A stretch of DNA of 64,000 nt from Christiangramia crocea (GTDB lineage: Bacteria > Bacteroidota > Bacteroidia > Flavobacteriales > Flavobacteriaceae), in assembly GCF_022410465.1 (NCBI RefSeq), contig NZ_JAJSON010000026.1:1-64000 (forward strand). The letters are read 5' to 3'. Of this stretch, positions 11,521 to 37,782 are shown piece after piece. The notes under the pieces were generated by a model that was not told the DNA's origin, ran no database searches, and worked only from the letters and a program-made list of their open reading frames with translations. Every line of letters starts with the position of its first letter. Within the stretch, counting starts at the first letter, position 1. Both the position numbers and the translations under genes were made by a program.

Positions 11521-11571
11521 TACGTATAATTAACTAAGTATTATTACATATATTTGTTTAGTAAATACGTA
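11521..11571 (+). promoter_or_regulatory. nirB operon promoter with GTA-N4-TAC type operator half-sites
   Basis: A perfect -7 box TATATTTG lies at 11549-11556. Immediately upstream and overlapping it by two bases is TAAGTA-TTAT-TACATA (11535-11550), a one-mismatch copy of the palindrome TAAGTA-N4-TACTTA found in front of other nitrate genes. Further half-sites are TACGTA at 11521-11526 and TACGTA at 11566-11571. The in-frame TTG at 11554 lies inside the -7 box, so the gene must start at the ATG at 11575. Confidence 0.65.
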
Positions 11572-11574
11572 GTT

Positions 11575-14085
11575 ATGGAAAAAATAATTGTAGTTGGTAA
11601 TGGAATGGTGGGATATAAATTCTGTGAGAAACTCATTGCCTCACCGCGAAGAAAGGACTTTGAACTCCTTGTATTTGGTGAGGAACCACGCTCGGCTTAT
11701 GATCGTGTTCATCTTAGTGAGTATTTTTCCAGGGAACAGCCAGATGAACTATTAATGGCTCCATTATCCTGGTATCACGAAAATGATATTGAATTACGTA
11801 CTTCAGAACTGATCAAAGAGATAAGGCCTGAACAAAAAGAGGTTATTACCTATAAGGATGAGGTATATAATTATGATCGGCTTGTATTAGCCACAGGTTC
11901 CTACCCTTTTGTACCGCCGATCAATGGAACAGATAAGCCCGGCGTCTTTGTTTATCGTACCATTGAAGATCTTGACGCGATGCGGCATTATGCTTCCAGG
12001 TTAAAAAAGGAAGGAAAGACCCGGGCGGCTGTTCTGGGTGGAGGGCTCCTTGGCCTGGAGGCGGCAAATGCCGCCAGGGAACTGGGAATGCAAACAGATG
12101 TGGTGGAATTTGCTCCTCGTTTAATGCCAAGACAATTGGACGAGTCTGCCAGTAAAATGCTGGAATCCAAGATCAAAAGTCTGGGAATCAATGTTCACCT
12201 TAATAAAGCCACTTCAGTAATTACAGGAGAGGAAGGCGTTGAAAGTCTGGAATTTTCTGACGGCACTTCACTTAAGACTGACATGCTAATTATTTCTGCC
12301 GGAATCAGACCCCGGGATGAGCTTGCGGTAAATGCTGGTTTGAAGACCGGTGAACGCGGAGGGGTGTGGGTCAATAATAAAATGCAGACTTCAAATAAAG
12401 ATATTTATGCCATAGGTGAAGTCGCCTTTTATAATGGAGGGCTATATGGCCTTGTTGCACCGGGTTATAATATGGCCGAAGTGGCCGTGGAGCAGATCAC
12501 CGGTGGCGATAAAATAATGATCGAGACCATCGATATGTCTACACAATTAAAACTGATCGGGACCGAGGTGGCCAGTTTTGGTGATCCATTTATCGATAAT
12601 GACGAGGTTGCCACCATCGTCTATGAAAATAAACGTTCGGGAATTTATAAGCGTATCAATGTTTCCAGGGAGGGAGAAAAACTTCTGGGAGGTATCCTTA
12701 TAGGTGACTCTTCAGATTATAATAATCTTTTTCAGCTCTACATCAATGCGATGAAATTGCCCGAAAATCCCGAAGACCTTATTATTCCCTCCAAAGACGG
12801 AAAAGAAAGTGCCATGGGAAGCGCCATGGATTATCCTGATACGGCGCAGATATGTTCCTGTGAAAGTGTTACTAAAGGAGCAATTTGTTGCTCTGTGGAG
12901 AGTGGAGACTGTGAAAGCCTGGGAGATGTTATAAAGACGACAAAAGCCGCAACGGGATGCGGTGGATGTAAACCCATGGTAGCCGACCTTGTAAAGGCTA
13001 CTCTGAAATCCATGGGCAAGGAAGTGAAAGAAACTATTTGTTCCCACTTTAAATTCAGCAGGCAGGAATTATACGATCTTATCAAGATTAATAAAATAAA
13101 GGATTATAACGAGGCCCTTGATCTTTTTGGACAGGGGAATGGTTGTGAAATTTGTAAACCGGCGCTGGCTTCCATCTTTTCCAGTATCTATATGGAAACG
13201 GCGAACAGGCAGGTCACCATTCAGGATTCTAATGACAGGTTTCTGGCGAATATTCAGAAGAATGGTAGTTATTCGGTTGTGCCACGCGTGCCGGGCGGAG
13301 AGATAACTCCGGAAAAACTGATGGTTCTGGGTAGGGTTGCACAGAAATATGACCTTTACTCAAAGATCACCGGAGGACAGCGAATCGATCTTTTTGGAGC
13401 TGAACTCCATCAACTGCCACATATTTGGCGGGAACTTATAGATGCCGGTTTTGAGAGCGGTCACGCCTACGGAAAATCCCTGAGAACGGTAAAAAGCTGT
13501 GTAGGTTCAAGCTGGTGCAGGTATGGTATGCATGAAAGCGTAAGCTTTGCCATACGTATTGAAGAAAGATATAAAGGTTTAAGATCACCGCATAAATTAA
13601 AAGGAGGCGTTTCAGGTTGTATAAGGGAGTGTGCTGAAGCACGTGGAAAGGATTTCGGGATTATAGCCGTAGAGAGCGGATGGAACCTGTATGTATGCGG
13701 GAATGGGGGAGCCACTCCAAAACATGCGATCCTGCTGGCTGAACAGCTGGATGATGAAACCTGTATCAAATATATAGACAGATTTTTGATGTATTACATA
13801 CGTACCGCTCCGCCACTCACACGTACTGCGCCATGGTTGGAAAAGCTTGAAGGAGGGATCGAATATCTTAAAGATGTGGTGGTGAATGATTCTCTTGGAA
13901 TAGCTGAAGAATTAGAGAAAGAAATGCAGGGACTCGTAGATAAATATGAATGCGAATGGAAGCAGGCGATTGAAGATCCGGAGATGATGAAACGTTTTAA
14001 ACATTTTGTGAACTCTGATGATACCGATGATAACCTGGAATTTGTTCCGATGAGAGATCAGAAGAAGACAAGAGTCTGGAAATAA
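11575..14085 (+). CDS. nirB: assimilatory nitrite reductase [NAD(P)H], large subunit
   Basis: Six-electron reduction of nitrite to ammonium in the cytoplasm. Domains in order are an FAD-binding fold opening VVGNGMVGYKFCE (residues 5-17), an NAD(P)-binding GGGLLGLE (about 155), a BFD-like [2Fe-2S] region starting ICSCESVTKGAI (about 426) with CGGC and a second Cys pair GCEIC (about 523), then the sirohaem domain with CVGSSWC (Cys-x5-Cys, about 642) and GCIRECAEARG (Cys-x3-Cys, about 681). At 836 aa it is close to the E. coli enzyme's length. It opens an operon with nirD, DUF4202 and a two-component pair. The start was set at ATG 11575 because an upstream TTG lies in the promoter. Confidence 0.97.
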   Translation: MEKIIVVGNGMVGYKFCEKLIASPRRKDFELLVFGEEPRSAYDRVHLSEYFSREQPDELLMAPLSWYHENDIELRTSELIKEIRPEQKEVITYKDEVYNYDRLVLATGSYPFVPPINGTDKPGVFVYRTIEDLDAMRHYASRLKKEGKTRAAVLGGGLLGLEAANAARELGMQTDVVEFAPRLMPRQLDESASKMLESKIKSLGINVHLNKATSVITGEEGVESLEFSDGTSLKTDMLIISAGIRPRDELAVNAGLKTGERGGVWVNNKMQTSNKDIYAIGEVAFYNGGLYGLVAPGYNMAEVAVEQITGGDKIMIETIDMSTQLKLIGTEVASFGDPFIDNDEVATIVYENKRSGIYKRINVSREGEKLLGGILIGDSSDYNNLFQLYINAMKLPENPEDLIIPSKDGKESAMGSAMDYPDTAQICSCESVTKGAICCSVESGDCESLGDVIKTTKAATGCGGCKPMVADLVKATLKSMGKEVKETICSHFKFSRQELYDLIKINKIKDYNEALDLFGQGNGCEICKPALASIFSSIYMETANRQVTIQDSNDRFLANIQKNGSYSVVPRVPGGEITPEKLMVLGRVAQKYDLYSKITGGQRIDLFGAELHQLPHIWRELIDAGFESGHAYGKSLRTVKSCVGSSWCRYGMHESVSFAIRIEERYKGLRSPHKLKGGVSGCIRECAEARGKDFGIIAVESGWNLYVCGNGGATPKHAILLAEQLDDETCIKYIDRFLMYYIRTAPPLTRTAPWLEKLEGGIEYLKDVVVNDSLGIAEELEKEMQGLVDKYECEWKQAIEDPEMMKRFKHFVNSDDTDDNLEFVPMRDQKKTRVWK

Positions 14086-14106
14086 CATTTTTAAAACTGA
14101 AAGATC

Positions 14107-14484
14107 ATGCAAAATATTATAGAACAATATAATTCGGTTACTGCCACAGATGTAAAGAAATGGTTCAAGGCTGGAAAAACCACCGACTTTCCGATGGACG
14201 GGGGTGCCTGCGTGAAATATGAAAACAAGCAAATTGCCGTGTTTCATTTTACGAGAATATCCAAATGGTATGCCTGTCAGAATCTTTGTCCGCATAAGCT
14301 TGAGATGGTGATCTCCCGTGGAATGATTGGTGAAGATGAGGGAATTCCGAAGGTAGCCTGCCCAATGCATAAAAAGACATTTTCCCTTGAAGACGGGAAT
14401 AATCTCAACGGTGATGATTATAATATCGCGGTTTATCCTGTAAAGATTGAGGATGAAAATGTGTATATTGGTTTTTCTGATTAA
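14107..14484 (+). CDS. nirD: nitrite reductase small subunit, Rieske type
   Basis: A 125-aa partner of NirB. It has a Rieske-like fold with Cys61-Pro-His63 and Cys85-Pro-Met-His88, that is, the full CxH...CxxH ligand set for a [2Fe-2S] cluster; the E. coli NirD fold lacks these, so this one probably binds a cluster. It starts 21 bp after the nirB stop and precedes DUF4202 by 15 bp. It is expected to act as an electron-transfer or structural subunit of the cytoplasmic nitrite reductase. Confidence 0.95.
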   Translation: MQNIIEQYNSVTATDVKKWFKAGKTTDFPMDGGACVKYENKQIAVFHFTRISKWYACQNLCPHKLEMVISRGMIGEDEGIPKVACPMHKKTFSLEDGNNLNGDDYNIAVYPVKIEDENVYIGFSD

Positions 14485-14499
14485 CACCAGCAAAATCTG

Positions 14500-15084
14500 A
14501 TGGATAAAAAATTTGAAGAAGCGATACGCCGTATAGATGCGAGGAATTCTGAAGATCCCAATAAGGAAGAGTTCAATAATGGGAAAATAGCCCCTAAGGA
14601 ACTTTTATATTCTCAAAGAATGACTCAGCATCTGGAAGATTTTGCTCCCGATGCGCCTGAAGAACTTAAGATTGCGGCCAGGGCACAGCATATCTGTCGT
14701 TGGAAAGTAGAGCGTAGTGAATATCCATCCACCCGCGTGGGCTATTTGAAATGGAGAAATGAGCTTAAGAAACTGCATGCTCAGATCACGGGAGAGATCC
14801 TCGAAGAGGTTGGTTATGATGAAGAGTTTATAGACCGGGTGAAATTCCTTATCCAGAAGAAAAAGATTAAAAAAGATGAGGATTCTCAAACACTTGAGGA
14901 CGTTATCTGCCTTGTGTTTCTGGAATATTATCTTAAGGATTTTGCTGCAAAGCATGAGGATGAGAAAGTGGTTGACATCATTAGGAAAACCTGGGCAAAA
15001 ATGTCGGAAAAAGGACATGAAGCTGCCCTTGAATTACCTCTTGATGACAGAAGTAAAACTCTTGTGAAACAGGCCCTGTCCTAA
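14500..15084 (+). CDS. DUF4202 family protein
   Basis: A 194-aa soluble protein with no signal peptide. Its conserved stretch AAQHICRWKVERSEYPSTR-like core reads ARAQHICRWKVERSEYPS at residues about 61-78, followed by GYLKWRNELKKLH, resembling an HD-type helical arrangement with His, Arg and Glu in helices. This matches DUF4202, a family that repeatedly lies beside nirBD; its role is not known. It lies between nirD (15 bp upstream) and the sensor kinase (13 bp downstream), so it belongs to the nitrite reductase operon. Confidence 0.88.
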   Translation: MDKKFEEAIRRIDARNSEDPNKEEFNNGKIAPKELLYSQRMTQHLEDFAPDAPEELKIAARAQHICRWKVERSEYPSTRVGYLKWRNELKKLHAQITGEILEEVGYDEEFIDRVKFLIQKKKIKKDEDSQTLEDVICLVFLEYYLKDFAAKHEDEKVVDIIRKTWAKMSEKGHEAALELPLDDRSKTLVKQALS

Positions 15085-15097
15085 AAATTTCAAGTGG

Positions 15098-16915
15098 ATG
15101 CCTAATACTCCCGGAAATTCGCTGGATCAACATACCTTCAAAAAGCTAAGCCGACTATATATTATAGCCCTTAGTGCTATAGCCGTTTCCGTAATTATCA
15201 GCCAGATTCTTATTCATCAGTTTCTTGAAGATCAGGAGAGTGATTCTACAGTGGTGAATATTGCGGGGCGCCAGAGGATGCTTAGCCAGAAACTTACCAA
15301 AGAAAGCCTTCAGCTTTTGATCGCAGAAGATACTTCTGAAATATCAGAACTTAAGGAGAATATTAACTCTACCCTTGAGAGATGGAAGTTCTCTCATTAT
15401 GCACTCATAGAAGGAAGCGATAGTCTGGGACTTCCCGGTAATAACAGTGAAAAGATCAGGGAAATGTTCGCGCAGATACAGCCCTATTTCCTGGAAATGG
15501 AAAATGCCAGCGAATCTATAATTCTTCAACTTGAGAATGAGCCTGAGGTGTCCGTTTCTGAACTTCGGGATGAGATTCTTACTGTAAAAAGTAATGAAGC
15601 GGCTTTTCTGGAAGGAATGGACAGGATCGTGAATCAATATGAATATGAGGCCAGTGAAAAGGTGGTGAGATTGGGCAACCTGGAACTTTTCATAATGGCC
15701 ATTACTCTTTTGATCCTGTTATGTGAATTCCTCTTTATCTTCTGGCCGGCAGCTAAAGCCGTTAGAAATACCATACATAAACTACTTATTGCTGAAGGAA
15801 ACGCCAGGAAAATGGCTCATGATGCCGATCTTTTAAGCCAGGCCAAGGAAAAATCGGTTAAAGAGTTAAGGGTGCTTAATCAGGCCATGAATCAAACACT
15901 TTTATTCGCCAGGATCACTCCGGAGGGAGATATTATCCAGTTGGGAGAGAAATTTTCCAGGCTATTCAAGATCAGAAAGTTTGGCGATTACAGCAAATTT
16001 CAGGCTTTACTTTCCGGAAATGAGGAGGAGAGAAAGAATATCGAGAGCTTACTTGAAGAAAATGCCAGGAAAAGCTGGCAGGGAGAAGTAAAAGCCACCA
16101 CTAGCGAAGGAGCCGATGTTTGGATGGAAATGTCTCTTATTCCTTTTAATCCCGCCCAGGATAAGTGGGAACTTCTCGTAATTGCAACAGATATTACCAG
16201 TAGAAAGGAGGCTCAGCTTGAAATAGAGCGGCTCACCCAGAAGAGCTTTGAGGAAAAGATGAATCAGCAAAAACTGATTTCAAGTAAGATCATTGAGAAC
16301 CAGGAGAACGAGCAGAATCGTATCGCTAAGGATATTCACGATGGAATTGGTCAAATGCTTACCGGCCTTAGTTTTAATCTGGAAAGTATAGATGTTAATA
16401 ATACTGAGAAGGCCGAGCAGAAGATTGAACACCTTAAAGAGCTCACAGCAAGCATTATCAAAGGAGTCAGGACGGCGACCTTCAATTTAATGCCTCCCGA
16501 ACTTAGTGACCATGGGATTATTCCGGCACTTACCAAACTTACCCGGGAGCTTGGTAAACTAACCGGAAAGAATATTCTATTATATGATAAGACGGGCTTT
16601 GCCCAACGCATGAACTCTTTAATTGAGATCAATATCTACAGGATCACCCAGGAAGCTATTAATAATGCCATTAAATATGCCGATTCTACTCATATTATAG
16701 TTACGGTTTCCCATAGCTCCAGCATACTTAGTATAACTATAGATGACAATGGAAAAGGTTTTGATATGAAAAACGTTAAGACCAGGAATGGTGACGGAGG
16801 TATGGGGATGACATTCATGAGAGAACGCATAAAATATATCAATGGCCGACTTTTTATAAATTCTGAACCCGGTAAAGGAACCAGGGTAACTCTTAACATC
16901 CCTTTGACAGAATAA
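15098..16915 (+). CDS. NarX/NarQ-like sensor histidine kinase
   Basis: A 605-aa inner-membrane kinase. Membrane segment 1 covers residues about 17-38 and segment 2 about 198-222. The extracytoplasmic part begins with VVNIAGRQRMLSQKLTKE (about 51-68), equivalent to the P-box by which NarX/NarQ bind nitrate, and matches the PilJ-like N-terminal domain. A linker and a PAS-like region (about 270-370) follow, then a HisKA_3 domain with RIAKDIHDGIGQM (His414) and an ATPase domain with NNAIKYA, DDNGKGFD and GGMGMTFMRERI. It is cotranscribed with nirBD and the response regulator. Nitrate or nitrite sensing is inferred from the P-box and the neighbours. Confidence 0.9.
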   Translation: MPNTPGNSLDQHTFKKLSRLYIIALSAIAVSVIISQILIHQFLEDQESDSTVVNIAGRQRMLSQKLTKESLQLLIAEDTSEISELKENINSTLERWKFSHYALIEGSDSLGLPGNNSEKIREMFAQIQPYFLEMENASESIILQLENEPEVSVSELRDEILTVKSNEAAFLEGMDRIVNQYEYEASEKVVRLGNLELFIMAITLLILLCEFLFIFWPAAKAVRNTIHKLLIAEGNARKMAHDADLLSQAKEKSVKELRVLNQAMNQTLLFARITPEGDIIQLGEKFSRLFKIRKFGDYSKFQALLSGNEEERKNIESLLEENARKSWQGEVKATTSEGADVWMEMSLIPFNPAQDKWELLVIATDITSRKEAQLEIERLTQKSFEEKMNQQKLISSKIIENQENEQNRIAKDIHDGIGQMLTGLSFNLESIDVNNTEKAEQKIEHLKELTASIIKGVRTATFNLMPPELSDHGIIPALTKLTRELGKLTGKNILLYDKTGFAQRMNSLIEINIYRITQEAINNAIKYADSTHIIVTVSHSSSILSITIDDNGKGFDMKNVKTRNGDGGMGMTFMRERIKYINGRLFINSEPGKGTRVTLNIPLTE

Positions 16916-16966
16916 AGAGAATACCTAAAAAATCACTAATTTTAGGGGCAGAATTTAAATTGAAAA

Positions 16967-17620
16967 ATGGATAATATACGTATAGTGCTGGCAGACGATC
17001 ACGTTCTGGTTCGAGATGGAATAAAGTCATTACTGGAAGAACAACCCGATATGGAGGTGGTTGCCGAAGCTTCAGATGGAAAGGAAGCCATCGGGATTCT
17101 TGAAAAGGATCTGCCTGATCTTCTTATCGTAGATATACGTATGCCTGAAATGAACGGGATCGAGGTCGTTAAAAAGATCCGTGATAATAAGTGGGATGTT
17201 AAGACTCTTGTTCTTTCCATGCATGATTCCGAAGAATACGTAGTGCAGTCTGTTCAGGCAGGAGCTGATGGCTACCTTTTAAAAGGATCCAGCAAAGATG
17301 AATTTCTTAAAGCCTTGCATAAAGTAGCAAGTGGAGGTAAATACTTTTCTGGTGATATTTCGGCCATTCTTATAAATAATTTCACAGATGGAAAGCCTGT
17401 TGAGAAGGAGAAGAAACAGGAGGATCCATTTAATCTTACCAAAAGAGAAAAGCAGATACTTAAACTGGTGCTACAAGGAAAAAGCAATAAGGAAATAGGG
17501 AATGAGCTGGAAATTAGTAAAAGGACAGCTGAGGTACACAGGTTCAACCTTATGAAGAAACTGGATGTTAAGAACCTTATAGAGCTTACCAATAAAGCAC
17601 GGGAGTATCAACTCGCCTGA
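16967..17620 (+). CDS. NarL/FixJ-family response regulator
   Basis: A 217-aa regulator with a receiver domain (acidic pocket DD at 10-11, phospho-acceptor Asp56 in LLIVDIRMPEMNG, Lys near residue 105) and a C-terminal LuxR-type HTH (LTKREKQILKLVLQGKSNKE then RTAEVHRFNLMKKL). It lies 51 bp behind the NarX-like kinase, its evident partner. NarL proteins bind heptamers related to TACYYMT; the half-site TACTTAA in the narK promoter differs from that at one position, so this protein is a second candidate reader of the island's palindromes, besides the FNR-like regulator. Confidence 0.92.
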   Translation: MDNIRIVLADDHVLVRDGIKSLLEEQPDMEVVAEASDGKEAIGILEKDLPDLLIVDIRMPEMNGIEVVKKIRDNKWDVKTLVLSMHDSEEYVVQSVQAGADGYLLKGSSKDEFLKALHKVASGGKYFSGDISAILINNFTDGKPVEKEKKQEDPFNLTKREKQILKLVLQGKSNKEIGNELEISKRTAEVHRFNLMKKLDVKNLIELTNKAREYQLA

Positions 17621-17707: not shown

Positions 17708-17770
17708 TACGTAATTTTTCATAAATACGTATATTTTATAAGTACATATTAAGTAAAAATACTTAATTTG
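17708..17770 (+). promoter_or_regulatory. narK promoter/operator with a perfect 18-bp palindrome
   Basis: TTAAGTA-AAAA-TACTTAA is a perfect palindrome at 17749-17766. It overlaps a one-mismatch -7 box (TTAATTTG, 17763-17770). Further half-sites lie upstream: TACGTA (17708-17713 and 17726-17731) and AAGTA at 17740-17744. The density of GTA/TAC half-sites in 60 bp is far above the surrounding DNA. Confidence 0.65.
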
Positions 17771-17790
17771 GCGCTTTAAAATCATACGTG

Positions 17791-19209
17791 ATGAAAAATT
17801 CAATATCTAAAAAAGCAACCAAGTTAAATCTCAAAAACATCAAAAGTGTCCCAATTCGCACTTTCTGGATCACTTCATTCGCATTTTTCCTTTGTTTTTT
17901 CTCGTGGTTCGGAATTGTTCCTTTCATGCCAGATGTGGTTAGGGAGCTTGGATTAAGTCCGTCAGAAAAGTGGAGTGCCGTGGTGCTTGCAGTAACCGGG
18001 ACCGTCTTTGCCAGGCTTTTTATTGGAAAACTTTGTGATAAATATGGACCAAGGCTCTGCTATACCTGGTTACTTATATTTGGATCTATACCTGTGATTT
18101 TAACCGGTTTTGTACAAACGGCCGATCAGTTTCTCATTTGCAGATTGCTCACAGGTTTTATAGGGGCATCATTCGTTATAACCCAGGTTCATACCTCTTT
18201 AATGTTTTCCTCCAATGTAGTAGGTACAGCAAATGCTACTTCAGCAGGATGGGGAAATCTTGGAGGAGGAGCAAATCGCCTGGGAATGCCACTTATTGCC
18301 GCTCTCGTTATAGCTCTGGGCGTGGCAGAATCATCGGCCTGGAGATATTCGGTTATCATAGCCGGAATCCTGTGTTTTTCAATGGGAATTGTCTATTACT
18401 TTTTTACGCAGGACACCCCTGAAGGTAATTTCAGTGAATTATCAGAAAAAGAAGATGTTCCCGGAATCAAAAAGGATAAAGTGGGTTTTTTAAACGCATT
18501 AAAGGATTACAGGGTTTGGATTTTATTTATAGTATATGCCTGTAGTTTTGGAATAGAATTAACCGTTTATGGAACCATGGACGATTATCTTCAAAACACA
18601 TTTCAGCTGGAAAGGATCACGGCGGGAAATATGGTACTGTCCTTCGCTTTAATGAATATTTTTGCCCGTACCCTGGGAGGCGCTTTTGGCGATAGATTCG
18701 GGAAATTAAAGGGGTTACGGGGTAGAGTTTTATTTCTATCATTTATCCTGGTGGTGCAGGGGATTGTACTTTCTTCCTTCTCAGGGATTACCAATCTTTA
18801 CATAGCCATAGGCTTTTTAATACTCTTCAGTCTTTCAGTCCAAATGGCCGAAGGAGCAACCTTTTCAGTGGTACCGTTTATTAATAAAAAAGCGATCGGT
18901 TCTATTTCAGGGATCGTGGGAGCGGGAGGTAATGTTGGAGCTTTCCTGGCAGCCCTGCTTCTGAAATTTAAATCGGGCGCCGCTGAAAAGGTAGCGATAG
19001 CAGCCAACGAAGGTTTAAGCCAGGATGTAATACGCTCAGCGCAATCTGCAGCCTCTGCCCAGGCAGTTTCAGAAGGATATCTGTTTATTGGTCTTACCGT
19101 GATAGCATCCGGAATAGTTGCTTTGGGAATAAGATTCTCAGTAAAAGATGAGAAGCTGGCCAGGGAAGAACTTAACGCCTCCCTGGATGTTGTGCCTGCA
19201 AATGCTTAA
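17791..19209 (+). CDS. narK: NarK/NasA-type nitrate/nitrite transporter (MFS)
   Basis: Inner-membrane carrier of the nitrate-nitrite porter family, about 12 membrane helices in 472 aa. Both glycine-rich nitrate signatures are present: SAGWGNLGGGANRLG (about 150) and SGIVGAGGNVGAF (about 372). The start is taken at ATG 17791, since the in-frame GTG directly before it is less likely. It is a separate unit between the nirB operon and the nitrate reductase, with its own palindromic operator. Uptake of nitrate for assimilation is the likely role; nitrite export cannot be excluded. Confidence 0.95.
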   Translation: MKNSISKKATKLNLKNIKSVPIRTFWITSFAFFLCFFSWFGIVPFMPDVVRELGLSPSEKWSAVVLAVTGTVFARLFIGKLCDKYGPRLCYTWLLIFGSIPVILTGFVQTADQFLICRLLTGFIGASFVITQVHTSLMFSSNVVGTANATSAGWGNLGGGANRLGMPLIAALVIALGVAESSAWRYSVIIAGILCFSMGIVYYFFTQDTPEGNFSELSEKEDVPGIKKDKVGFLNALKDYRVWILFIVYACSFGIELTVYGTMDDYLQNTFQLERITAGNMVLSFALMNIFARTLGGAFGDRFGKLKGLRGRVLFLSFILVVQGIVLSSFSGITNLYIAIGFLILFSLSVQMAEGATFSVVPFINKKAIGSISGIVGAGGNVGAFLAALLLKFKSGAAEKVAIAANEGLSQDVIRSAQSAASAQAVSEGYLFIGLTVIASGIVALGIRFSVKDEKLAREELNASLDVVPANA

Positions 19210-19325: not shown

Positions 19326-22300
19326 ATGGGGCATATGATCGGGAAAGAAGCGAAAAGTACATGTTCATACTGTGGAGTTGGATGCGGTGTTGTAATTAAA
19401 AAAAATGCCCGGAACCGTATTGAGGTGGAAGGAGATAAGGAGCATCCGGTTAATAAAGGGATGCTTTGTTCCAAGGGGATGAACCTCCATTATGTGGTGA
19501 ATGATACTTCAGACAGGATCCTTTATCCTGAAATGCGGTGGAGTCGTTCCCATCCCAGGGAACGAGTCTCATGGGACGATGCCATGAACAGGGCTGCCGG
19601 TGTTTTCAAATCAATAATAAAAAAACACGGCCCCGATAGTGTTGGTTTTTATGTTTCCGGCCAGTGCCTGACAGAAGAATATTATATAGCCAATAAACTT
19701 ACCAAAGGATTTTTAGGCACCAATAATATAGATACCAATTCCCGTCTCTGTATGAGCTCGGCAGTTGTTGGTTATAAGAAAACCTTTGGAGAAGATTCAG
19801 TACCCGGGAGCTATGACGACATAGAGCTGGCCGATTGTTTCCTGATAGCCGGGGCGAATCCTGCCTGGTGTCATCCAATACTTTTCAGAAGAATAGAAAA
19901 GCATAAGGAGGAAAATCCCAATGTAAAAATAATTGTTGCCGATCCCCGTAAAACCGATTCCGCTAATTTTGCCGATCTTCATCTTCAGCTACTACCGGGA
20001 ACCGATGTGATCCTTTATAATGCCATTGGCAGGCAGTTGCTGAAAAAGGGCTTTATAGATAAGAACTTTATAAGGAACCATACGGAAGGCTTTAAAGAAT
20101 TCAGGGAAAAAGTAATGGAATTATCCCTGAATCAGTCTTCAAAATTATGCGGGGTTCCCGCTGCAGAAATTAAAAAGGCTGCGACTCTTATTGGCCGTTC
20201 AAAAGGCTTTATAAGTATGTGGGCAATGGGGCTTAACCAAAGTGTGATTGGCTCTGACAAGAATTTTTCCTTGCTGAATCTTTCTCTTGTAACAGGTCAG
20301 GTCGGGAAACCGGGTTGCGGACCTTTTTCCCTTACCGGTCAGCCCAATGCAATGGGTGGTCGCGAGGTAGGAGGGATGGCCAATCTGCTGGCAGTTCATA
20401 AAGACCTGTTTAATGAAGAACATAGAAAAGAGGTTGCTCAATTCTGGGGTGTGAATGAGATTTCTCCAAAACCCGGTTATACGGCTACTGAAATGTTCGA
20501 TGCACTTGAAGAAGGTAAGCTGAAAGCAATCTGGATCATTTGCACCAATCCCATGGTGAGTTTGCCTAATGTTCGAAAAGCTGAAAAGGCTCTGAAAAAA
20601 GCCAAATTTGTTGTGGTTCAAGATATTTCACATAAATCGGATACTGTAGATTTTGCAGATTTGGTTTTGCCTGCAGCCGGCTGGCTTGAGAAAGATGGAA
20701 CCATGACCAATTCTGAAAGGCGCATTTCCTACCTGGAGAAACATATTCATCCGCCGGGAGAAGCCAGGGCCGATGTAGAGATTCTTTGTGATTTTGCCCA
20801 GAGAATGGGATTCAGGGGATTTAATTACAATAATACCGAAGAGATCTATCGTGAATATACCCAAATGACCAGGGGGACCAATATCGATATTTCTCATCTT
20901 AGCTATGACCGACTAAAGAATGAAGGTTCATTCCAATGGCCGGTACCCGAATATAGACATGCCGGGACTCCAAGACTTTTCCAGGACAGGAAATTCTATA
21001 CCCCATCAGAAAAAGCGATTTTCAATATTCCCGCCAGTACTATAAATACATCGGCCAAACCTGATTCTGAATATCCTCTTATACTTACTACAGGAAGGAT
21101 CAGGGATCAATGGCATACCATGACGCGAACAGGGAAAGTCGCGAGATTAAAAACGCATTATCCGGATCCAATCCTGGAGATCAATCTTGTGGATGCTTAT
21201 TTAAATAATATTAAAAACGGAGATGTCACTGAGGTGAAAAGTGCCAGCGGTACCGTAAGGTTAAGGGCGAAGGTAACTGAAAACGTTAGGGAAGGTGTGG
21301 TATTTATGCCAATGCACTGGGGTAAGCAGCTTCATAATGATCTTAACCGGGCAAATAATCTTACCAGTGACCTGGTAGATCCACTTTCAAAGGAGCCCGA
21401 TTTTAAATATACTACGGTCTCCGTTCAGAAATATAAAAAGAAGAAAGAAAAAATACTGATAGTAGGAGCGGGTGCGGCTGCTTTCCGGTTTATTCAGAAT
21501 TACCGCGAGCATAATACCAGCGATCAGTTGGATGTCTTCTCCAAGGAAGAGAATCCATTTTACAACCGCGTTCTGCTTCCGGAATATATCACCGAAGAGC
21601 TCACCTGGGAACAGCTTCAGAAGATAAAGGAAAGAGAACTTGAAAAACTGAAAATAAACCTTCATAAGGAAAGCTTTATTACTGCTATAGATACTGAAGA
21701 CAGGACAGTGACCGATAACAATGGAAAAACTCATTCTTTCGACAAGCTGATCCTTGCAACCGGTAGCCGGGCATTTGCCCCTAAGGATGCGCAACTTCAT
21801 TTGCCGGGCAGATTTACCATGAGAAGTAAAAAGGATGCCGATAGCTTTAAAGCCTATATGGATGCTACCGGACTGCCACCCGAACAGCAACACGTAGTGA
21901 TCGTTGGTGGCGGGCTTCTGGGACTTGAACTGGCTGCAGCCCTGAAACATAAGGATGTGAAAGTTACTATAGTCCAACGGTCTTCAAGACTTATGGAACG
22001 CCAGCTTGATATTACTTCGAGCAAATTACTTGCACAGGACGTACAGGAACGGGGAATTCAGATTTATTTCGATAATGAGGTGAGTACCGTTTTTGATGAT
22101 GAAGATTCCGGCAATCTGAATATTACCCTTAAAAGTGGTAAGAATATAAATGCGAATGCCATTGTATATGCTATTGGAACACTACCAAATATCAATATTG
22201 CCAGGAAAAGCGGACTGGTTTGCGGTCGTGGGGTTAAAGTGAACCAGCATTTGCAAACTTCAGATCCCGATATTTTCGCACTGGGCGAGATTGCCGAGTT

Positions 22301-22856
22301 CAGAAATAAATTGTTTGGAATCACTTCAGCGGCGGAAGAGCAGGCGACCATCCTTGCTAACTTTATGGCAGGAGACATAAGCAGCACTTATCACGGTTCG
22401 GTTTTGATGAATATTTTAAAATTCAACGATCTTGATGTTTGTAGCATTGGTGACATACATGTCCCCGGGAATGATGACAGCTATGAGGAGATAATCTTTA
22501 CCGATATCAAGAAAAGATATTATAAGAAATGCATCGTAAAAGATGATCTGTTGGTAGGTGCCGTTTTAATGGGAGATAAAAATGAATTCGCCGAATTCAA
22601 GAGCCTTATTGAAAGTAAGATCGAATTGTCAGACAGGAGAGACAGTCTGTTACGAGGTTCTGGAAATGATGAACCTGTGAAAGGAAAACTGGTGTGTTCC
22701 TGCAGTCAGGTAGGTGCCGGAAATCTTGGAGAAGCTATCTCTAATGGCTGTACCGATTTTACGGAATTGTGTAAGCAAACCGGGGCCGGACTTGGATGTG
22801 GTAGTTGTAAGACGGAGGTGAAGGAAATATTAAATTCATCAAAAGAACTGGTATGA
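19326..22856 (+). CDS. nasC: single-chain assimilatory nitrate reductase: Mo-bisMGD catalytic part fused to FAD reductase and [2Fe-2S] domain
   Basis: Reduces nitrate to nitrite. Residues 1-690 are a molybdopterin oxidoreductase: a [4Fe-4S] site Cys13-x2-Cys16-x3-Cys20-x27-Cys48, a probable Mo ligand Cys142 in NSRLCMSSAVVGY, and the C-terminal dinucleotide-binding domain. Residues about 707-1110 form a NirB-like FAD/NAD(P) reductase (ILIVGAGAAAFRF, then IVGGGLLGLELAAAL). Residues 1121-1170 are a BFD-like [2Fe-2S] module (CSCSQ and GCGSCK). At 1176 aa it joins in one chain what Klebsiella makes as separate NasA and NasC. Formate dehydrogenase relatives share the first part, but the nitrate context decides. 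Its stop overlaps the next ATG by 4 bp. Confidence 0.93.
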   Translation: MGHMIGKEAKSTCSYCGVGCGVVIKKNARNRIEVEGDKEHPVNKGMLCSKGMNLHYVVNDTSDRILYPEMRWSRSHPRERVSWDDAMNRAAGVFKSIIKKHGPDSVGFYVSGQCLTEEYYIANKLTKGFLGTNNIDTNSRLCMSSAVVGYKKTFGEDSVPGSYDDIELADCFLIAGANPAWCHPILFRRIEKHKEENPNVKIIVADPRKTDSANFADLHLQLLPGTDVILYNAIGRQLLKKGFIDKNFIRNHTEGFKEFREKVMELSLNQSSKLCGVPAAEIKKAATLIGRSKGFISMWAMGLNQSVIGSDKNFSLLNLSLVTGQVGKPGCGPFSLTGQPNAMGGREVGGMANLLAVHKDLFNEEHRKEVAQFWGVNEISPKPGYTATEMFDALEEGKLKAIWIICTNPMVSLPNVRKAEKALKKAKFVVVQDISHKSDTVDFADLVLPAAGWLEKDGTMTNSERRISYLEKHIHPPGEARADVEILCDFAQRMGFRGFNYNNTEEIYREYTQMTRGTNIDISHLSYDRLKNEGSFQWPVPEYRHAGTPRLFQDRKFYTPSEKAIFNIPASTINTSAKPDSEYPLILTTGRIRDQWHTMTRTGKVARLKTHYPDPILEINLVDAYLNNIKNGDVTEVKSASGTVRLRAKVTENVREGVVFMPMHWGKQLHNDLNRANNLTSDLVDPLSKEPDFKYTTVSVQKYKKKKEKILIVGAGAAAFRFIQNYREHNTSDQLDVFSKEENPFYNRVLLPEYITEELTWEQLQKIKERELEKLKINLHKESFITAIDTEDRTVTDNNGKTHSFDKLILATGSRAFAPKDAQLHLPGRFTMRSKKDADSFKAYMDATGLPPEQQHVVIVGGGLLGLELAAALKHKDVKVTIVQRSSRLMERQLDITSSKLLAQDVQERGIQIYFDNEVSTVFDDEDSGNLNITLKSGKNINANAIVYAIGTLPNINIARKSGLVCGRGVKVNQHLQTSDPDIFALGEIAEFRNKLFGITSAAEEQATILANFMAGDISSTYHGSVLMNILKFNDLDVCSIGDIHVPGNDDSYEEIIFTDIKKRYYKKCIVKDDLLVGAVLMGDKNEFAEFKSLIESKIELSDRRDSLLRGSGNDEPVKGKLVCSCSQVGAGNLGEAISNGCTDFTELCKQTGAGLGCGSCKTEVKEILNSSKELV

Positions 22857-29445: not shown

Positions 29446-29780
29446 AGCTCGTACTTTTTTAATTGTTCTTCCAGGAAGAAAATGCAGTTATCATTGATTT
29501 CTTCGAACTGGCGGATAAGCTCTTTGCCATAACTGGTTACCACGGTTCCTCCGCCATTTCTTCCACCGGTTTTTTTAATTGTAGCCGGCTCCTTGCCAGA
29601 CTCATTAATACTGTTCATCATTTCCCATGCTTTTTTATAGGAAATCGAAAGCTCTTTCGCTGCGGCATTTATAGAACTTGTTTCTTCTATTTTTTTCAGA
29701 AGAAGGATCTTTCCGTAACCCAGAAATGGCTTACCATTCCTTTCTATCCATATCCTGCTTTTTATCTTTTTAATACCCAT
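29442..29780 (-). CDS. ModE-type winged-helix regulator without molybdate-binding domain
   Basis: A 112-aa protein matching only the N-terminal DNA-binding domain of ModE (LGYGKILLLKKIEETSSINA, then KAWEMMNSIN and GGRNGGGTVVTSYG). The C-terminal TOBE/molbindin domains that bind molybdate are absent, so either it does not sense molybdate itself or it uses another partner. It overlaps moeA by 11 bp upstream and mobA by 4 bp downstream, so it is translated within the cofactor operon it may control. Confidence 0.88.
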   Translation of the reverse strand: MGIKKIKSRIWIERNGKPFLGYGKILLLKKIEETSSINAAAKELSISYKKAWEMMNSINESGKEPATIKKTGGRNGGGTVVTSYGKELIRQFEEINDNCIFFLEEQLKKYEL

Positions 29781-30951
29781 ATCCCAGATCCAGGTATTCT
29801 ACCTTTTCGTTTTTACCGATTAATTCTTTTTCTCCGGGTATCATAACCAGGGCATTACTTTGTGTAAAACTGTGCATCATAGATGAGCTCTGTCCGTCAA
29901 GGATATCAATTCTCCCGTCCTGGACTTTTGCCTTTAGAAATAAGCTTTTCCCAGATTTATTTTCAGCGGGACGGGATAAAACTGCGCTGGCTTTTTTAAG
30001 ATCTACATTCTTAAAACCTTTCTGTCTTCTTAATGCCGGTAACACATATACATAAAAGCATACGAGGCTGGCTGCAGGATTGCCAGGCAGACCAAAAACC
30101 CTCTTATCTTCTTTTTTGCCGAACCACAGGGGTTTTCCAGGTTTCTGATTGACCTTATAAAAGATCTCCTCAACTCCATTAGCAAATAGTGCTTCTCTAA
30201 CAAAATCATATTCTCCCACTGAAATACCACCCGATAATAACAGTACATCATTTTCAGCCAGTGCGCTCCGTATAGTTTCTTTAGTTTCGAGAATATTATC
30301 TCTTACCTTATAATGATGTACCTCCCTGAATTTGTTGCGCTTTAGGGCGGCTTTAAGCATAAAGGAATTGCTTTCGAAGATTTTGCCGGGTTTTAAAACT
30401 GTTCCAGGTTTTTGAAGTTCATCTCCGGTGACAATGATTGCAATTTTAGGTGTATCAAAAACTTTCACCTTATTGATCCCAAGACCAGCCAGAAGCGCGA
30501 TCCCGCTTTCATTTAAAACGGTTCCTTTATTTAAGACCGGAGAACCTTTTTGAAATTGTTCTCCCTTTAATCTGATATTAGCTCCTGTTGAAGGAAATTT
30601 TATAATACTTAGTTTATTATATTTTACTTCTACGTGTTCCTGGATCACAACTGTATCGGCATTTTCAGGAACCATGGCTCCGGTAAAGATCCTTACGGCT
30701 TCTCCCTCATCCAGATGGAATTGTGGTGCGTCGCCCGCTTTGGATTCACCTATTATTCTGAATTCACCAGAGCTATTACCCCTTATTGCATAGCCATCCA
30801 TGGCCGATTGGGAGAATGGTGGCATGTCTATGGGTGATGAAATATTATCTGCCAGGACCTTTTCACTGGCTTCTTCAAGAGCTACTTCCACAGGTCTGGG
30901 AGCTACCGCCTCCAGCTGTATAAGAGATAATGCCTGGTTAACTGAGATCAT
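29770..30951 (-). CDS. moeA: molybdopterin molybdotransferase
   Basis: Inserts molybdate into adenylated molybdopterin. Motifs: MPPFSQSAMDGYAIR near the N-terminus, IFTGAMVPENADTVV, IVTGDEL, LLSGGISVGEYDFV and GLPGNPAAS. At 393 aa it has normal length. The start is placed at the ATG giving MISVNQALSLIQLEA, because the longer frame would begin upstream of a perfect -7 promoter box. First gene of the cofactor operon moeA-modE-mobA-sumT-moaD-moeB-moaE-moaCB-moaA. Confidence 0.96.
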   Translation of the reverse strand: MISVNQALSLIQLEAVAPRPVEVALEEASEKVLADNISSPIDMPPFSQSAMDGYAIRGNSSGEFRIIGESKAGDAPQFHLDEGEAVRIFTGAMVPENADTVVIQEHVEVKYNKLSIIKFPSTGANIRLKGEQFQKGSPVLNKGTVLNESGIALLAGLGINKVKVFDTPKIAIIVTGDELQKPGTVLKPGKIFESNSFMLKAALKRNKFREVHHYKVRDNILETKETIRSALAENDVLLLSGGISVGEYDFVREALFANGVEEIFYKVNQKPGKPLWFGKKEDKRVFGLPGNPAASLVCFYVYVLPALRRQKGFKNVDLKKASAVLSRPAENKSGKSLFLKAKVQDGRIDILDGQSSSMMHSFTQSNALVMIPGEKELIGKNEKVEYLDLGYGY

Positions 30952-30972
30952 TTTTCTAGCGTTATGTTTTTT

Positions 30973-31026
30973 CAAATATAACGTAGAAATACGTATAAAC
31001 AAATAAAAAGTAAGTAAAAATACTTA
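30973..31026 (-). promoter_or_regulatory. moeA operon promoter with two palindromic operators
   Basis: Minus-strand -7 box TATATTTG at 30980-30973. Directly upstream is AACGTA-GAAA-TACGTA (30980-30995), overlapping the box by one base. A second copy, a perfect TAAGTA-AAAA-TACTTA, lies at 31011-31026. The two centres are 31 bp apart, about three helical turns. Confidence 0.65.
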
Positions 31027-32494: not shown

Positions 32495-32517
32495 TTTTTT
32501 TAGTTAAAGATTAATTA

Positions 32518-33354: not shown

Positions 33355-33372
33355 TTTTTTCAGTTTTAAAGT

Positions 33373-34212
33373 TTAGGCCACAAAGCTTTTCGGGCTTATA
33401 TCCGGAAGGCTATATTCCTTTTGAGACACCGACTTGCGCTGTTCCCCTATATCCATCAGATACTCGATAATAGCGTTCCTTGTTTTCTTGAAATTCGGAT
33501 TGTCATTCAAATCGGTCTTGTCCCTCGGCCGGGCTATATCGATCCTGAATTCAGGTCCCAGTGTGGCATTGGGTCCGGGTTTTAAGGGTATTATCCTATC
33601 GGCCATATAAATACCTTCATCCACATCATTAGTAATAAGAAGGGCCGTGCGTTTATGTTTGCTCCATATATTCAGGATCTCGTCCTGAAGGTTTCCGCGG
33701 GTAAGTGCATCAAGGGCGCCCAGGGGTTCGTCCATGATGATCATCTCGGGATTCATAGCCAGGGCTCTTGCCACCGCAACGCGCTGGCGCATTCCACCTG
33801 AGAGTTCTTTGGGACGTTTGTGATAAGCCGGAGTAAGTCCTACCATATCTACATATTCCTTTACTCTTTCATGAAGAACCTGTTTCTTTTCCTTTGGGAA
33901 AGCCTCCTTTACGGCCATGTATACATTCTGACCAACACTAAGCCATGGGAGTAGCGAATAATTTTGAAATATCACTCCGCGTTCATGACTTGTGCCGTTA
34001 ACCGGCTTTCCTTTGAAGAGTACCTCTCCACTGCTAGGTTCCAGCAATCCGTTGATGAGGTTTACCAAAGTGGTCTTTCCGCTTCCGGTAAATCCCACAA
34101 TCGCCACGAATTCTCCTTCCTCGATCTCAAGGTTGATATCAGAAAGCACCTGTGTACTTTCTTTACCCCGTCCATAAGTCTTATTTACATTCTTTAGTTC
34201 CAGATATGCCAT
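33373..34212 (-). CDS. nrtC: nitrate-type ABC importer ATPase (NrtC-like, single domain)
   Basis: A 279-aa ATPase with Walker [10 protein letters not shown], signature [14 protein letters not shown] and Walker [13 protein letters not shown]. The usual switch histidine is replaced: ITNDVDEG instead of VTHDVDEA, i.e. Asn at the His position, which suggests this site hydrolyses ATP poorly and the pair works asymmetrically. It lies 16 bp after the permease gene. No C-terminal regulatory domain. Confidence 0.9.
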
Positions 34213-34228
34213 TTTTTATTCTTTTAGA

Positions 34229-35335: not shown

Positions 35336-35345
35336 GATGCGTTTT

Positions 35346-36743
35346 TTAAAGTGAGGAATCGTCTTTGTTACCTATTTTGAAGCTGTTGATATAACTAATA
35401 GGATCTTTGGCGTCATAGGTATTACCGTCTATGAAATCTGATGTCGCTGGTTTGTATCCATCCGTTTCAGGAATATCAGAAGCCGGGATGTGACCTTCAT
35501 CAGCCAGTAGTTTTGCCGCTTCTTTCCAGATATCAGGGCGGTAGATCTCTTTGATGGTTTCATCGTACCAGTCTGCCGGTTTTGTATCAGGGATCTGTCC
35601 CCATCTTCTCATTTGTGTTAAGAACCATATCCCGTCTGAATAGAATGGATAGGTGGCATTATATTTATAAAAGACATTGAAGTCTGGCATGGAACGTTTG
35701 TCACCTTTTTCAAATTCAAAGGTTCCTGTCATTGAATTAGCGAGTACCACTTCATCTGCGCCCACATATTGTGGCTTGGAAAGTATCTTTACCGCTTCGT
35801 CACGATTCCCCGGTTCATCCAGCCATTTCCCGGCACGTATAAGAGCTTTTGTCACCGCTATAGCTGTATTCGGGTTTTCTTCCACAAATTTTTTGGTCAT
35901 CACGAATACTTTCTCCGGGTTGTTCTTCCAAATTTCATAGTTGGTAACCACAGGTACACCAATTCCTTTAAAAACGGCCTGTTGGTTCCAGGGCTCTCCC
36001 ACACAGTAACCATGAATGGTGCCTGCTTCGAGAGTCGCGGGCATTTGAGGTGGAGGAGTTACCGAAAGAAGTACTTCGGCATCTATCTGCCCCTGGATAT
36101 TATCCCTTGTGTACATTCCCGGATTTATTCCGGCGGCGGCCAGCCAGTATCTTATTTCATAGTTATGAGTTGAAACCGGAAAGACCATACCCATTTTAAA
36201 AGCACGCCCTGTCTTCTTGTATTCATCTATTACCGGTTTTAATGCTTCGGCTGAAATTGGGTGGGCAGGTTTGCCTTCTTCATTCAGAGGGACGTTAGGT
36301 TTCATTTTTGACCAGACATCGTTGGAAACTGTAATTGCATTTCCGTTGAGGTCCATGGAAAAAGGAGTTACCAGTTTAGCCTGTCTCCCAAATCCCGCTC
36401 CGGCCGCGATAGGCTGACCTGCCAGCATGTGTGAGCCGTCCAGTTGGCCGTCAATTACACGATCCAGCACATTTTTCCAGTTAGACTGGGCCTCTACAGA
36501 AACAAAAAGACCTTCATCTTCAAAAAAGCCTTTCTCCTTCGCGATGGCCAGGGGAGCCATATCGGTTAATTTGATAAAGCCGAATGTTAGCTGTGGCTTT
36601 TCAATTTCAAGTTGAACCGTTTTACTGGTTGAAAGTGCCAGGTCATTGCTTTCTTCGCCGGATGATTTTTTCTTATTTTCTCCGCAGGAAGCGATCAGGA
36701 GGATTATCATCAATCCAAATGATCTAAATAATAATGATTTCAT
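35346..36743 (-). CDS. nrtA: CmpA/NrtA-family substrate-binding lipoprotein
   Basis: A 465-aa lipoprotein: signal peptide with lipobox LIASC and modified Cys at residue 20, then a linker and a periplasmic-binding fold opening [20 protein letters not shown], typical of NrtA/CmpA. Conserved stretches include [18 protein letters not shown] and [16 protein letters not shown]. Nitrate (or nitrite) is favoured over bicarbonate because every neighbour serves nitrate assimilation. First gene of the operon nrtA-nrtB-nrtC-nrtD-porin, with a TACGTA palindrome before it. Confidence 0.93.
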
Positions 36744-36765
36744 AATTTCTCTTTTAAATAGTTAA

Positions 36766-36802
36766 CCTAAATACGTAATGATACGTAGTTTTGACAAATG
36801 TA
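36766..36802 (-). promoter_or_regulatory. nrtA promoter region with palindrome TACGTA-N4-TACGTA
   Basis: A perfect palindrome TACGTA-ATGA-TACGTA lies at 36772-36787. A perfect minus-strand -7 box TACATTTG is at 36802-36795, which would put the palindrome at the transcription start. A weaker box (TATTTAGG, 36773-36766) sits on the other side in the same register seen in other promoters of the island. Confidence 0.6.
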
Positions 36803-36859
36803 TAAGTATTAAAAGATTTGAATTATGATAAAAACGATGTTTATCCAGTCTTTTTAGCA

Positions 36860-36888
36860 AAAAAAAACATGCGAAACAGCATGTTTTT
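36860..36888 (-). terminator. terminator of the FNR-like regulator gene
   Basis: Stem AAAAACATGC (36863-36872) with GCATGTTTTT (36879-36888), 6-base loop, with a T tract on the minus strand. Confidence 0.85.
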
Positions 36889-36949
36889 GTTATAAGTGAC
36901 TGATAATCAAAATTCAGGAATGGTTCGAAAAACTACTTAGCCCGGTTAT

Positions 36950-37666
36950 TCAGCTATCTATAAAGTAATTATGTTCGGAGATTTCCCGTTTTAATTTGTT
37001 CACATCTCCAATAGCAATTCTTTTACCGGAAGTATAGATCTGTTTCTCTTTTTTTAAAGCTGATAAGGTTCTGATTACCTGTTCATTGGTTGTTCCGGCA
37101 TAATCTGCAATTTCCTTTCGACTCAGTAACAAACTTAGGAATCCGTTCTTCTCACCGAATCTTCTATGAATGTAAAGCAGGGTGTCTATTACACGTTCTC
37201 TAACGGTCATTTGAGCGAATGCCTTTACCTTAGTTTCAGAACGGTCCAGCTCTTCCCCATAAAATAGCATAAGATCATAGGTGAGTGCAGGGATGCTTTG
37301 GAGCATCTCAAACAGGTTTTCATTACTAAAATGGCATAAGATGGAATCCTCCATTGCCAGGGCGCTAATGGCATATTTTTTACTCGTTCCATAACCCCGG
37401 TGCCCCATGATCTCACCTGGCTTTACAAAACGAAGTATCTGTTCTTTTCCATAAATACCGGTCTTTAGGACCTTTGCCTTTCCCTTATATAGAAAATACA
37501 ATCCATTCACCGGCGAACCTTCCATGATGAATTGCTGCCCTTTCTTGCAGACAATAGTAGAGCGCCCTTCAACTGACTTCTGCATCAAGCTGGTTGAAAG
37601 ATGTTTTTTTATCAGGCAGTTCTCATTCAAGCAAGTGTTACAATCTATTCTTTCCTGTGGCATCAT
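36950..37666 (-). CDS. FNR-type regulator with complete Fe-S cysteine set
   Basis: A 238-aa Crp/Fnr protein. Residues about 33-150 form the cyclic-nucleotide-type sensor barrel and dimer helix, and 170-225 the winged HTH. Cysteines 9, 12 and 17 (CNTCLNENC) plus Cys111 match FNR Cys20, 23, 29 and 122 in both pattern and spacing, so an oxygen- or NO-sensitive [4Fe-4S] cluster is likely. The recognition helix TTNEQVIRTL keeps the Glu195-x3-Arg199 pair that reads the central G-C base pair in CRP/FNR sites, but has Ile where FNR has Ser212, predicting a half-site other than TTGAT. It stands at the edge of the nitrate island, divergent from the NUDIX regulator. Confidence 0.92.
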   Translation of the reverse strand: MMPQERIDCNTCLNENCLIKKHLSTSLMQKSVEGRSTIVCKKGQQFIMEGSPVNGLYFLYKGKAKVLKTGIYGKEQILRFVKPGEIMGHRGYGTSKKYAISALAMEDSILCHFSNENLFEMLQSIPALTYDLMLFYGEELDRSETKVKAFAQMTVRERVIDTLLYIHRRFGEKNGFLSLLLSRKEIADYAGTTNEQVIRTLSALKKEKQIYTSGKRIAIGDVNKLKREISEHNYFIDS

Positions 37667-37711
37667 ATTTTTATTTTTCAGGAGATACTTTAATTATCAA
37701 CCTGTTATAGC

Positions 37712-37719
37712 CAAAAATA
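37712..37719 (-). promoter_or_regulatory. -7 box (TATTTTTG) for the FNR-like gene
   Basis: A perfect minus-strand TAnnTTTG match, predicting a start near 37705. The palindrome at 37761-37776 would then be centred near -63. A near copy of the palindrome TAACAGGTTA lies at the predicted start (37698-37707). Confidence 0.55.
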
Positions 37720-37760
37720 AAGAATAGCGTCTGGAAAAGGACATAAAATGCTCAAAAAAA

Positions 37761-37782
37761 TAAGTAAAAGTACTTAGTTTTG
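37761..37782 (+). promoter_or_regulatory. palindrome TAAGTA-AAAG-TACTTA overlapping a plus-strand -7 box
   Basis: The 16-bp palindrome (37761-37776) overlaps the perfect -7 box TAGTTTTG (37775-37782) by two bases, the same register as at nirB. A transcript from here would start near 37789 and run toward the NUDIX gene with a leader of about 260 nt. Confidence 0.6.

Follow-up and report, generated by a model that had tools for sequence, protein, structure and literature searches.

Which regulator acts on the palindrome that recurs at the promoters of a nitrate island in Christiangramia crocea, and from what position on these promoters would it act? The island lies in a stretch of 64,000 nucleotides (NCBI RefSeq assembly GCF_022410465.1, contig NZ_JAJSON010000026.1, positions 1 to 64,000), hereafter called the window, and the element in question consists of two inverted hexamers around a 4-nucleotide centre, TAMGTA-N4-TACKTA (TAMGTANNNNTACKTA). 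We propose that a nitrate two-component system whose genes lie in the island itself, namely, a kinase with a PilJ-type sensor and a P-box and a NarL-like response regulator, uses this palindrome as its operator, a reading to which we assign a probability of about 0.8.

Six copies of the palindrome had been located by an initial annotation made from the letters of the window. All six were found at those places, including a perfect 18-bp palindrome at 17749-17766, exact copies at 31011, 36772 and 37761, and copies with one mismatch each at 30980 and 11535. The distances given from the palindrome centre to the TAnnTTTG promoter box (the -7 box) were also correct: 6.5 bp at nirB and at 37761, 5.5 bp at narK and 7.5 bp at moeA. 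The operators are listed below.

11535-11550, + strand: operator of the nirB operon, one mismatch, overlapping the -7 box TATATTTG at 11549-11556
17750-17765, + strand: narK operator, exact, within the 18-bp palindrome, with a -7-like box TTAATTTG at 17763-17770
30980-30995, - strand: proximal operator on the moeA side, one mismatch, in the 19-bp spacer between TTTG at 31000-31003 and TATATTTG at 30973-30980
31011-31026, - strand: distal operator on the moeA side, exact, 31 bp upstream of the proximal operator
36772-36787, - strand: nrtA operator, exact; a TTTG at 36795-36798 occupies a -33-like place, and the -7 box is weak (TATTTAGG)
37761-37776, - strand: FNR-like gene operator, exact; a TTTG at 37784-37787 occupies a -33-like place and is absent in a sister species (G015)

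The genes that these sites precede were assigned, like the rest of the island, by family models, several matches lying under the curated cut-offs.

11554-14085, + strand: nirB, above cut-off on both TIGR02374 and PRK14989; this is the mechanical start of the open reading frame (ORF), the likely ATG being at 11576
17788-19209, + strand: narK-like nitrate/nitrite transporter, 298 bits on TIGR00886, slightly under the cut-off of 312
29770-31002, - strand: moeA, by family model match
35346-36743, - strand: nrtA, substrate-binding protein of a nitrate ABC transporter, matching SsuA_fam under cut-off
36950-37666, - strand: FNR-like regulator of the Crp family, by family models, taken here as a member of the regulon

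The four exact copies in the window compare with 0.025 expected from 40 second-order Markov simulations, and the two copies with one mismatch compare with 0.425, in agreement with the earlier claim that the perfect matches are beyond chance. Only four exact palindromes occur in the whole genome (3,902,243 bases), all inside about 20 kb of the nitrate island. Since the reversed word, which served as the control, likewise has four copies genome-wide, the signal lies in the clustering of the exact palindromes and not in their total. When up to one mismatch was allowed, the palindrome was found at 32 places (6 in the island) and the reversed word at 84, so that the one-mismatch copies outside the island look like background. 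The composite word that joins the palindrome to the -7 box (AWTAMGTANNNNTACKTANNTTTG), searched with up to two mismatches, gave eight places genome-wide; the island has six of these, among them the top three. The scan suggested with the initial annotation thus shows exact copies that cluster in the island, and a scattered motif was not borne out.

Conservation was followed in 80 loci (1,594,358 bases) from among the matches listed for similarity to the response regulator; because they were chosen by this protein, they show conservation and register and not co-occurrence. These loci contained 237 exact palindromes against 0 reversed words, with at least one copy in every locus, and 229 of the 237 lay outside ORFs of at least 100 amino acids, which make up 85% of the bases. 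Among the perfect 6-N4-6 palindromes of these loci, TAAGTA led by far with 125 copies, the runner-up having 31. A downstream gene was assigned to 228 copies, namely, nirB (74), the response regulator (57), narK (52), a nasC fusion (25), nrtA (11), FNR (4), a porin-like gene (3) and moeA (2); 2 copies lay inside genes, and 7 were unassigned. The exact word stood upstream of nirB in 73 of the 74 loci with a nirB match above 800 bits, the exception being a sister species (L086) with one mismatch. For narK, 45 loci had a + strand match above 300 bits, and 44 of these have the exact word upstream. In a sample of 395 genomes from the order, 30 of the 36 NirB loci were examined and 29 had the exact word, the window itself being the one-mismatch case; at least two genomes of these NirB loci are also among the 80 loci. 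Together with the window and genome counts, the numbers in relatives and the position of the copies outside ORFs led us to reject chance as the origin of the palindromes.

Four related islands were annotated with the window's proteins. In the sister species G015, all the sites recur, each at its gene and with an unchanged number of mismatches, and the nrtA copy was the same as in the window; the FNR copy reads TTTAATAAAAC, so that the + strand box of 37761 is not conserved there. The counterpart of the 37761 site is kept before the FNR-like gene of this species, where no NUDIX gene was found in the surrounding 54 kb, indicating that the site goes with the FNR-like gene. The initial annotation had placed it in the gap between the FNR-like and NUDIX genes; the FNR-like side of this assignment stands, while the NUDIX side does not. 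A species of the same genus, G004, has the kinase and the response regulator; nrtA, nrtB, moeA, FNR-like and NUDIX genes were not found in its 52 kb, nor was an FNR-like relative found in its genome at E 1e-20. Its nirB and narK are nevertheless both preceded by the palindrome, and two further copies, spaced 32 bp, lie between the genes of a SUMT-type methylase and a porin-like protein, in the sequence context found upstream of moeA in the window; the moeA-side arrangement (TTTG, spacer, TATATTTG) is the same in both G015 and G004. In two islands whose FNR-like proteins are 59% identical to that of the window, the palindrome was found at nirB, FNR, moeA and nasC (G049) and at nirB, FNR and nasC and also between the response-regulator gene and a distant relative of narK (G025). 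As the initial annotation had expected of related genomes, the palindrome is thus conserved before the same genes.

The palindrome also keeps a fixed register on the -7 box. With its bases numbered 1 to 16 and promoters at least 80% alike over 110 bases removed, TTTG started at position 19 in 46 of 56 nirB, 31 of 40 narK and 18 of 24 nasC promoters, against 0.2 to 0.5 expected per position, although promoters of related species are not independent. The mirror-image CAAA on the other side was seen in 2 of 56, 0 of 40 and 0 of 24, respectively, so that the composite element has a direction. A motif search by expectation maximization that was not told the pattern, run on 94 nonredundant nirB and narK upstream regions (at least 70% alike removed), returned as its best 24-mer ATTAAGTAnnnnTACTTAnnTTTG / ATTAAGTAtaaaTACTTAgtTTTG, that is, the operator and the -7 box sharing TA. 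Both approaches agree that the register is not accidental, and register and conservation together support the view of a single regulator site common to the promoters of the island. At the response-regulator promoter, TTTG was found at positions 27-30 (49 occurrences in 52 sequences), a shift of about 9 bp that leaves the palindrome further upstream, and the last TA of the palindrome is the -7 TA in three of the four copies of the FNR-like gene from other species.

At 36772 and 37761, the + strand TAnnTTTG boxes face away from nrtA and the FNR-like gene, respectively. The box noted at 37761 by the initial annotation was correctly positioned but points away from the gene; the similar one at 36772 was not listed there. 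On the - strand of these two promoters in the window, TTTGNCAAAAC stands directly 5' of the palindrome, and the + strand boxes are its reverse complement. The simpler reading in the window would be that TTTGNCAAAAC on the - strand is what matters, rather than outward promoters on the + strand.

Single hexamers accompany the palindrome. Compared with shuffled flanks, half-sites numbered 1.82 against 0.25 per sequence at nirB and 2.40 against 0.26 at narK. In nonredundant promoters, an upstream half-site lay about 28 bp (26-33) from the palindrome centre at narK (35 of 40) and about 28 bp from it at nasC (18 of 24); a downstream one lay at about 26 bp (24-33 at nirB) in 43 of 56 nirB and 25 of 52 response-regulator promoters. 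In the window they are as follows, with no strand assigned.

11521-11526: extra half-site TACGTA, upstream of the nirB operator
11566-11571: extra half-site TACGTA, immediately 5' of the likely nirB ATG
17726-17731: single TACGTA half-site, 29 bp 5' of the centre of the narK palindrome, with others at 17708 and 17739

Three proteins encoded in the island come into question as binders besides any regulator encoded elsewhere. The kinase and the response regulator belong to a gene series headed by nirB (nirB-nirD-DUF4202-histidine kinase-response regulator); the FNR-like protein is listed above; the third is a NUDIX protein.

15098-16915, + strand: sensor kinase with PilJ-type sensor, PAS, HisKA_3 and HATPase domains and the P-box NIAGRQRMLSQKL
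16967-17620, + strand: NarL-like LuxR/GerE response regulator (PF00072, PF00196; NarL structure 1a04 at E 1.2e-40), the proposed binder of the palindrome
38023-38757, + strand: NrtR-like NUDIX regulator with an NrtR_WHD winged-helix domain, adjoining the FNR-like gene

We infer that the response regulator is the binder, where the initial annotation had named none, and that nitrate is the signal. In the order sample, the regulator was found in 38 genomes and NirB in 36; all 36 NirB-positive genomes have the regulator, so that 36 of the 38 regulator-positive genomes have NirB. The exact composite word was present in 25 of 30 regulator-positive genomes against 2 of 30 regulator-negative ones, with one match of the reversed word in the 60; among the regulator-negative controls, 20 were scored by the best candidates per genome only, and 10 were tested separately, the two with matches being re-tested. 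The two regulator-negative matches lie before a small membrane protein and before no ORF. Among the regulator-positive genomes lacking the exact composite, three (G024, G406 and G415) show a palindrome at nirB that is joined to a variant box, ATATTG, one (G049) has the palindrome at nirB without TTTG, and in one (G072) a contig end cuts the island. The P-box, NxAGxxRM, was found in 75 of 76 related kinases, and G-x-x-R is described, in the relevant part of PMC8199190, as the nitrate-binding P-box motif of kinases. On the NarL equivalog model, the response regulator scores 175 of 250 bits; being below the cut-off, it is a relative of NarL and not NarL itself.

The FNR-like protein is encoded in the island, its family commonly uses half-sites with an N4 spacing, and a site precedes its own gene; its residues C9, C12 and C111 align with the cluster cysteines of FNR and C17 is one residue off, a pattern close to that of the FNR cluster. 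However, of 79 genomes with the regulator (77 of them distinct, a subset of the available ones), 16 had no orthologue at E <= 1e-60, and 14 of these 16 kept the motif in the island. The two exceptions are G220, which has no NirB at the cut-off and in which the regulator flanks alone were examined, and G072, in which nirB is cut by the contig end. We therefore rejected the FNR-like protein as the general binder, a role that we consider very unlikely. The NUDIX protein, with its winged helix and its gene beside the 37761 site, was rejected as well, and we hold its candidacy to be close to negligible: within the stretches covered, it was not found in 54 kb of the sister species G015 and was found in only 2 of 80 related loci. 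Of the three candidates, only the response regulator, together with its kinase, was thus present in every case in which a nirB gene has the motif.

The co-occurrence would also be compatible with an unlinked partner, that is, with a regulator encoded elsewhere in the genome that binds the palindrome. Against this, 10 same-genus genomes negative for the regulator had 0 composite words, 4 genomes of the genus in which the regulator has no close relative (one among the ten) had 0 exact palindromes, and in many loci (57 of the 237 copies) the site stands at the promoter of the regulator itself. An unlinked binder is thus unlikely.

Some observations weigh against the response regulator as the binder. 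An orthologue of the FNR-like protein is present in 63 of the 79 genomes, and geometry cannot identify the binder, since Crp/Fnr proteins also use N4 palindromes, such as the site GTAAC-N4-GTTAC given for HcpR2 in part of PMC1274295. An exact palindrome was found within 1.5 kb of the regulator gene in 22 of 29 loci and was not seen in the other 7. Finally, one genome with no regulator match at E 1e-30 (G032) has five exact palindromes, TACGTA/TAAGTA-N4-TACGTA with GAAC, GTTC or GATC centres, which probably belong to another system. They lie at C10:8484, 10555 and 105409 and at C22:101559 and 101697.

If the response regulator is the binder, how would it act? All of the evidence here is comparison of sequence. 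The protein would occupy the palindrome as a dimer, with a protomer on each hexamer, and single half-sites about 28 bp upstream or about 26 bp downstream would add to this. At nirB, narK and nasC, the last TA of the palindrome doubles as the -7 TA. The TAnnTTTG box of Flavobacterium psychrophilum lies at -12 to -5, according to the pertinent part of PMC9723704; if this placement is valid here, the dyad centre would be at about -18.5 at these three promoters, inside the core promoter and thus in an unusual place, and about 9 bp further upstream, at about -27.5, at the response-regulator promoter.

Binding in the spacer, in a MerR-like geometry, would activate rather than repress, at odds that we judge only slightly better than even. 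Activation is favoured because the one-base register and the direction are kept at several unrelated promoters; repressor sites seldom keep both, while activator sites do. It would also be the simpler physiology, as a nitrate-activated kinase would then have nitrate-use genes as its targets. More specifically, a NarL-type regulator may switch on Bacteroidota sigma-A promoters from inside the core promoter, with an operator that shares two bases with the -7 box and replaces the -33 contact, the whole forming one 24-bp element. This specific model is tentative, and we place it somewhat short of even odds; if true, it would be a case of spacer-binding activation outside the MerR family.

The same operator and regulator could instead serve repression, with binding over the -7 box relieved by nitrate, for example if the nitrate-bound kinase acted as a phosphatase. 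The site would cover about -26 to -11, with half-sites near +8, so that RNA polymerase would be blocked in the simplest model, and autoregulated repressors are common. However, a one-base register at three promoters in a single orientation is more than a repressor needs, and nitrate kinases of E. coli phosphorylate their regulators when nitrate is present (as stated in part of PMC8139620), which would then shut off nitrate use. We regard repression as doubtful, though well worth weighing. The initial annotation had offered repression or an unusual activator geometry, and of these we favour the second only slightly.

The composite element has its own difficulties, and these count against the proposed explanation. 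In the window, the exact consensus register on the gene's own strand is found only at nirB, narK and moeA being one base off, and the nrtA and FNR-like promoters have weak -7 boxes. TTTG at position 19 was found in 0 of 10 nrtA promoters of other species. A missing -33 element would speak for activation, but a TTG at spacer 18-21, found in 4% of nirB, 0% of narK and 12% of nasC promoters, was found in only 10% of control boxes, too few for its rarity at these promoters to tell. For activation from -18.5 in the NarL-type family, no precedent was found in the open-access literature. A -33-like TTTG is present in the window at moeA (spacer 19) and at nrtA and the FNR-like gene (spacer 21), and across species it occupies that exact place in 5 of 11 nrtA and 0 of 4 FNR copies. 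The regulon promoters may thus differ among themselves.

Away from the island, regulator-positive genomes had five exact composite words. Four of these (L233, L238, L243 and L069) stand before a LysR-type helix-turn-helix gene (two genomes), which we read as ModE-like, before a SUMT-type methylase gene and before a BBP2 porin gene; no long ORF lies within 400 bp of the fifth. Among distant response regulators at the level of the phylum, 12 loci (L260-L271) had no exact motif in their 1.5-kb flanks. Six of the 12 genomes were examined over larger stretches, and among these only G635 (59% G+C in its first locus) combines nirB and nasC with a P-box kinase; it has TACGTA clusters upstream of nirB and nasC and no exact palindrome. 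At L272, in a relative with 59% G+C, such clusters upstream of nirB and nasC stand out likewise without an exact palindrome, and TACGTATTTTTG keeps the register. In G646, nirB was present and neither a P-box nor the motif was found; no nirB was seen in the other four. A class-level relative, G650, has four exact palindromes.

The island contains further genes. Those after moeA include genes for a MobA-like protein and a SUMT-type TP_methylase and, further on, a MoaA-like protein, and would form an operon with it. Adjoining nrtA is nrtB, which matches TIGR01183 under the cut-off, and family models also point to a rubredoxin-containing protein, a porin-like protein and nitrate ABC transporter neighbours. 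Two other genes recur in the relatives.

14500-15084, + strand: DUF4202 protein, encoded after nirD and before the kinase gene; present in 74 of 80 related loci
19326-22856, + strand: nitrate reductase fused to a NirB-like FAD/NADH domain, 1176 amino acids, matched in 78 of 80 related loci

The operator and regulon proposed here for nitrate use in a large flavobacterial family of ecological importance are precise and testable, and they predict genes for the molybdenum and siroheme cofactors and for porins as regulon members. The fixed overlap with the -7 box offers a way to study promoter switching in Bacteroidota. No description of such an operator was found in the open-access (PMC) literature, where we found only the kinase described, from sequence; most subscription journals were outside this search.

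Among known systems, NarX-NarL and NarQ-NarP of E. coli resemble the one proposed here in having a P-box nitrate kinase and a regulator of the same family (E 1.2e-40 to NarL, 1a04). NarL also uses several half-sites beside a main palindrome. Its heptamers, TACYNMT, are arranged tail to tail as 7-2-7 with TAC at the outside, a point against our assignment: in the palindrome described here, TAC adjoins the N4 centre and points outward, which is not the heptamer arrangement of NarL. MerR-type activators bind a palindrome on the core promoter in fixed register, within an over-long spacer between two promoter elements and with a dyad centre that lies a few base pairs further from the start than the one described here would; no MerR-family protein is proposed in our case, and no consistent -33 element could be shown at nirB, narK and nasC. 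The sites of HcpR2 and other Crp/Fnr proteins, in the portion of PMC1274295 that treats them, are 5-N4-5 palindromes, and the island has an FNR-like gene; the difference is that the FNR-like orthologue is dispensable for the motif here. The narHK/narRR systems of Bacteroidetes (PMC8199190) share the nitrate P-box (G-x-x-R) kinase, the PAS domain in Flavobacteriales and the gene setting, and Figure 3 of that paper uses JH651379, which is our locus L106; its focus is on the kinase, and the parts examined name no DNA site, regulon or promoter geometry. The site of ComA of Bacillus subtilis (described in part of PMC4797271) speaks for a response regulator as the binder: ComA is a NarL-family regulator with inverted hexamers, a 4-nucleotide spacer and extra half-sites, and it differs in its hexamer, TTGCGG, and in that its inverted repeat lies upstream of the RNA polymerase site and not on the -7 box.

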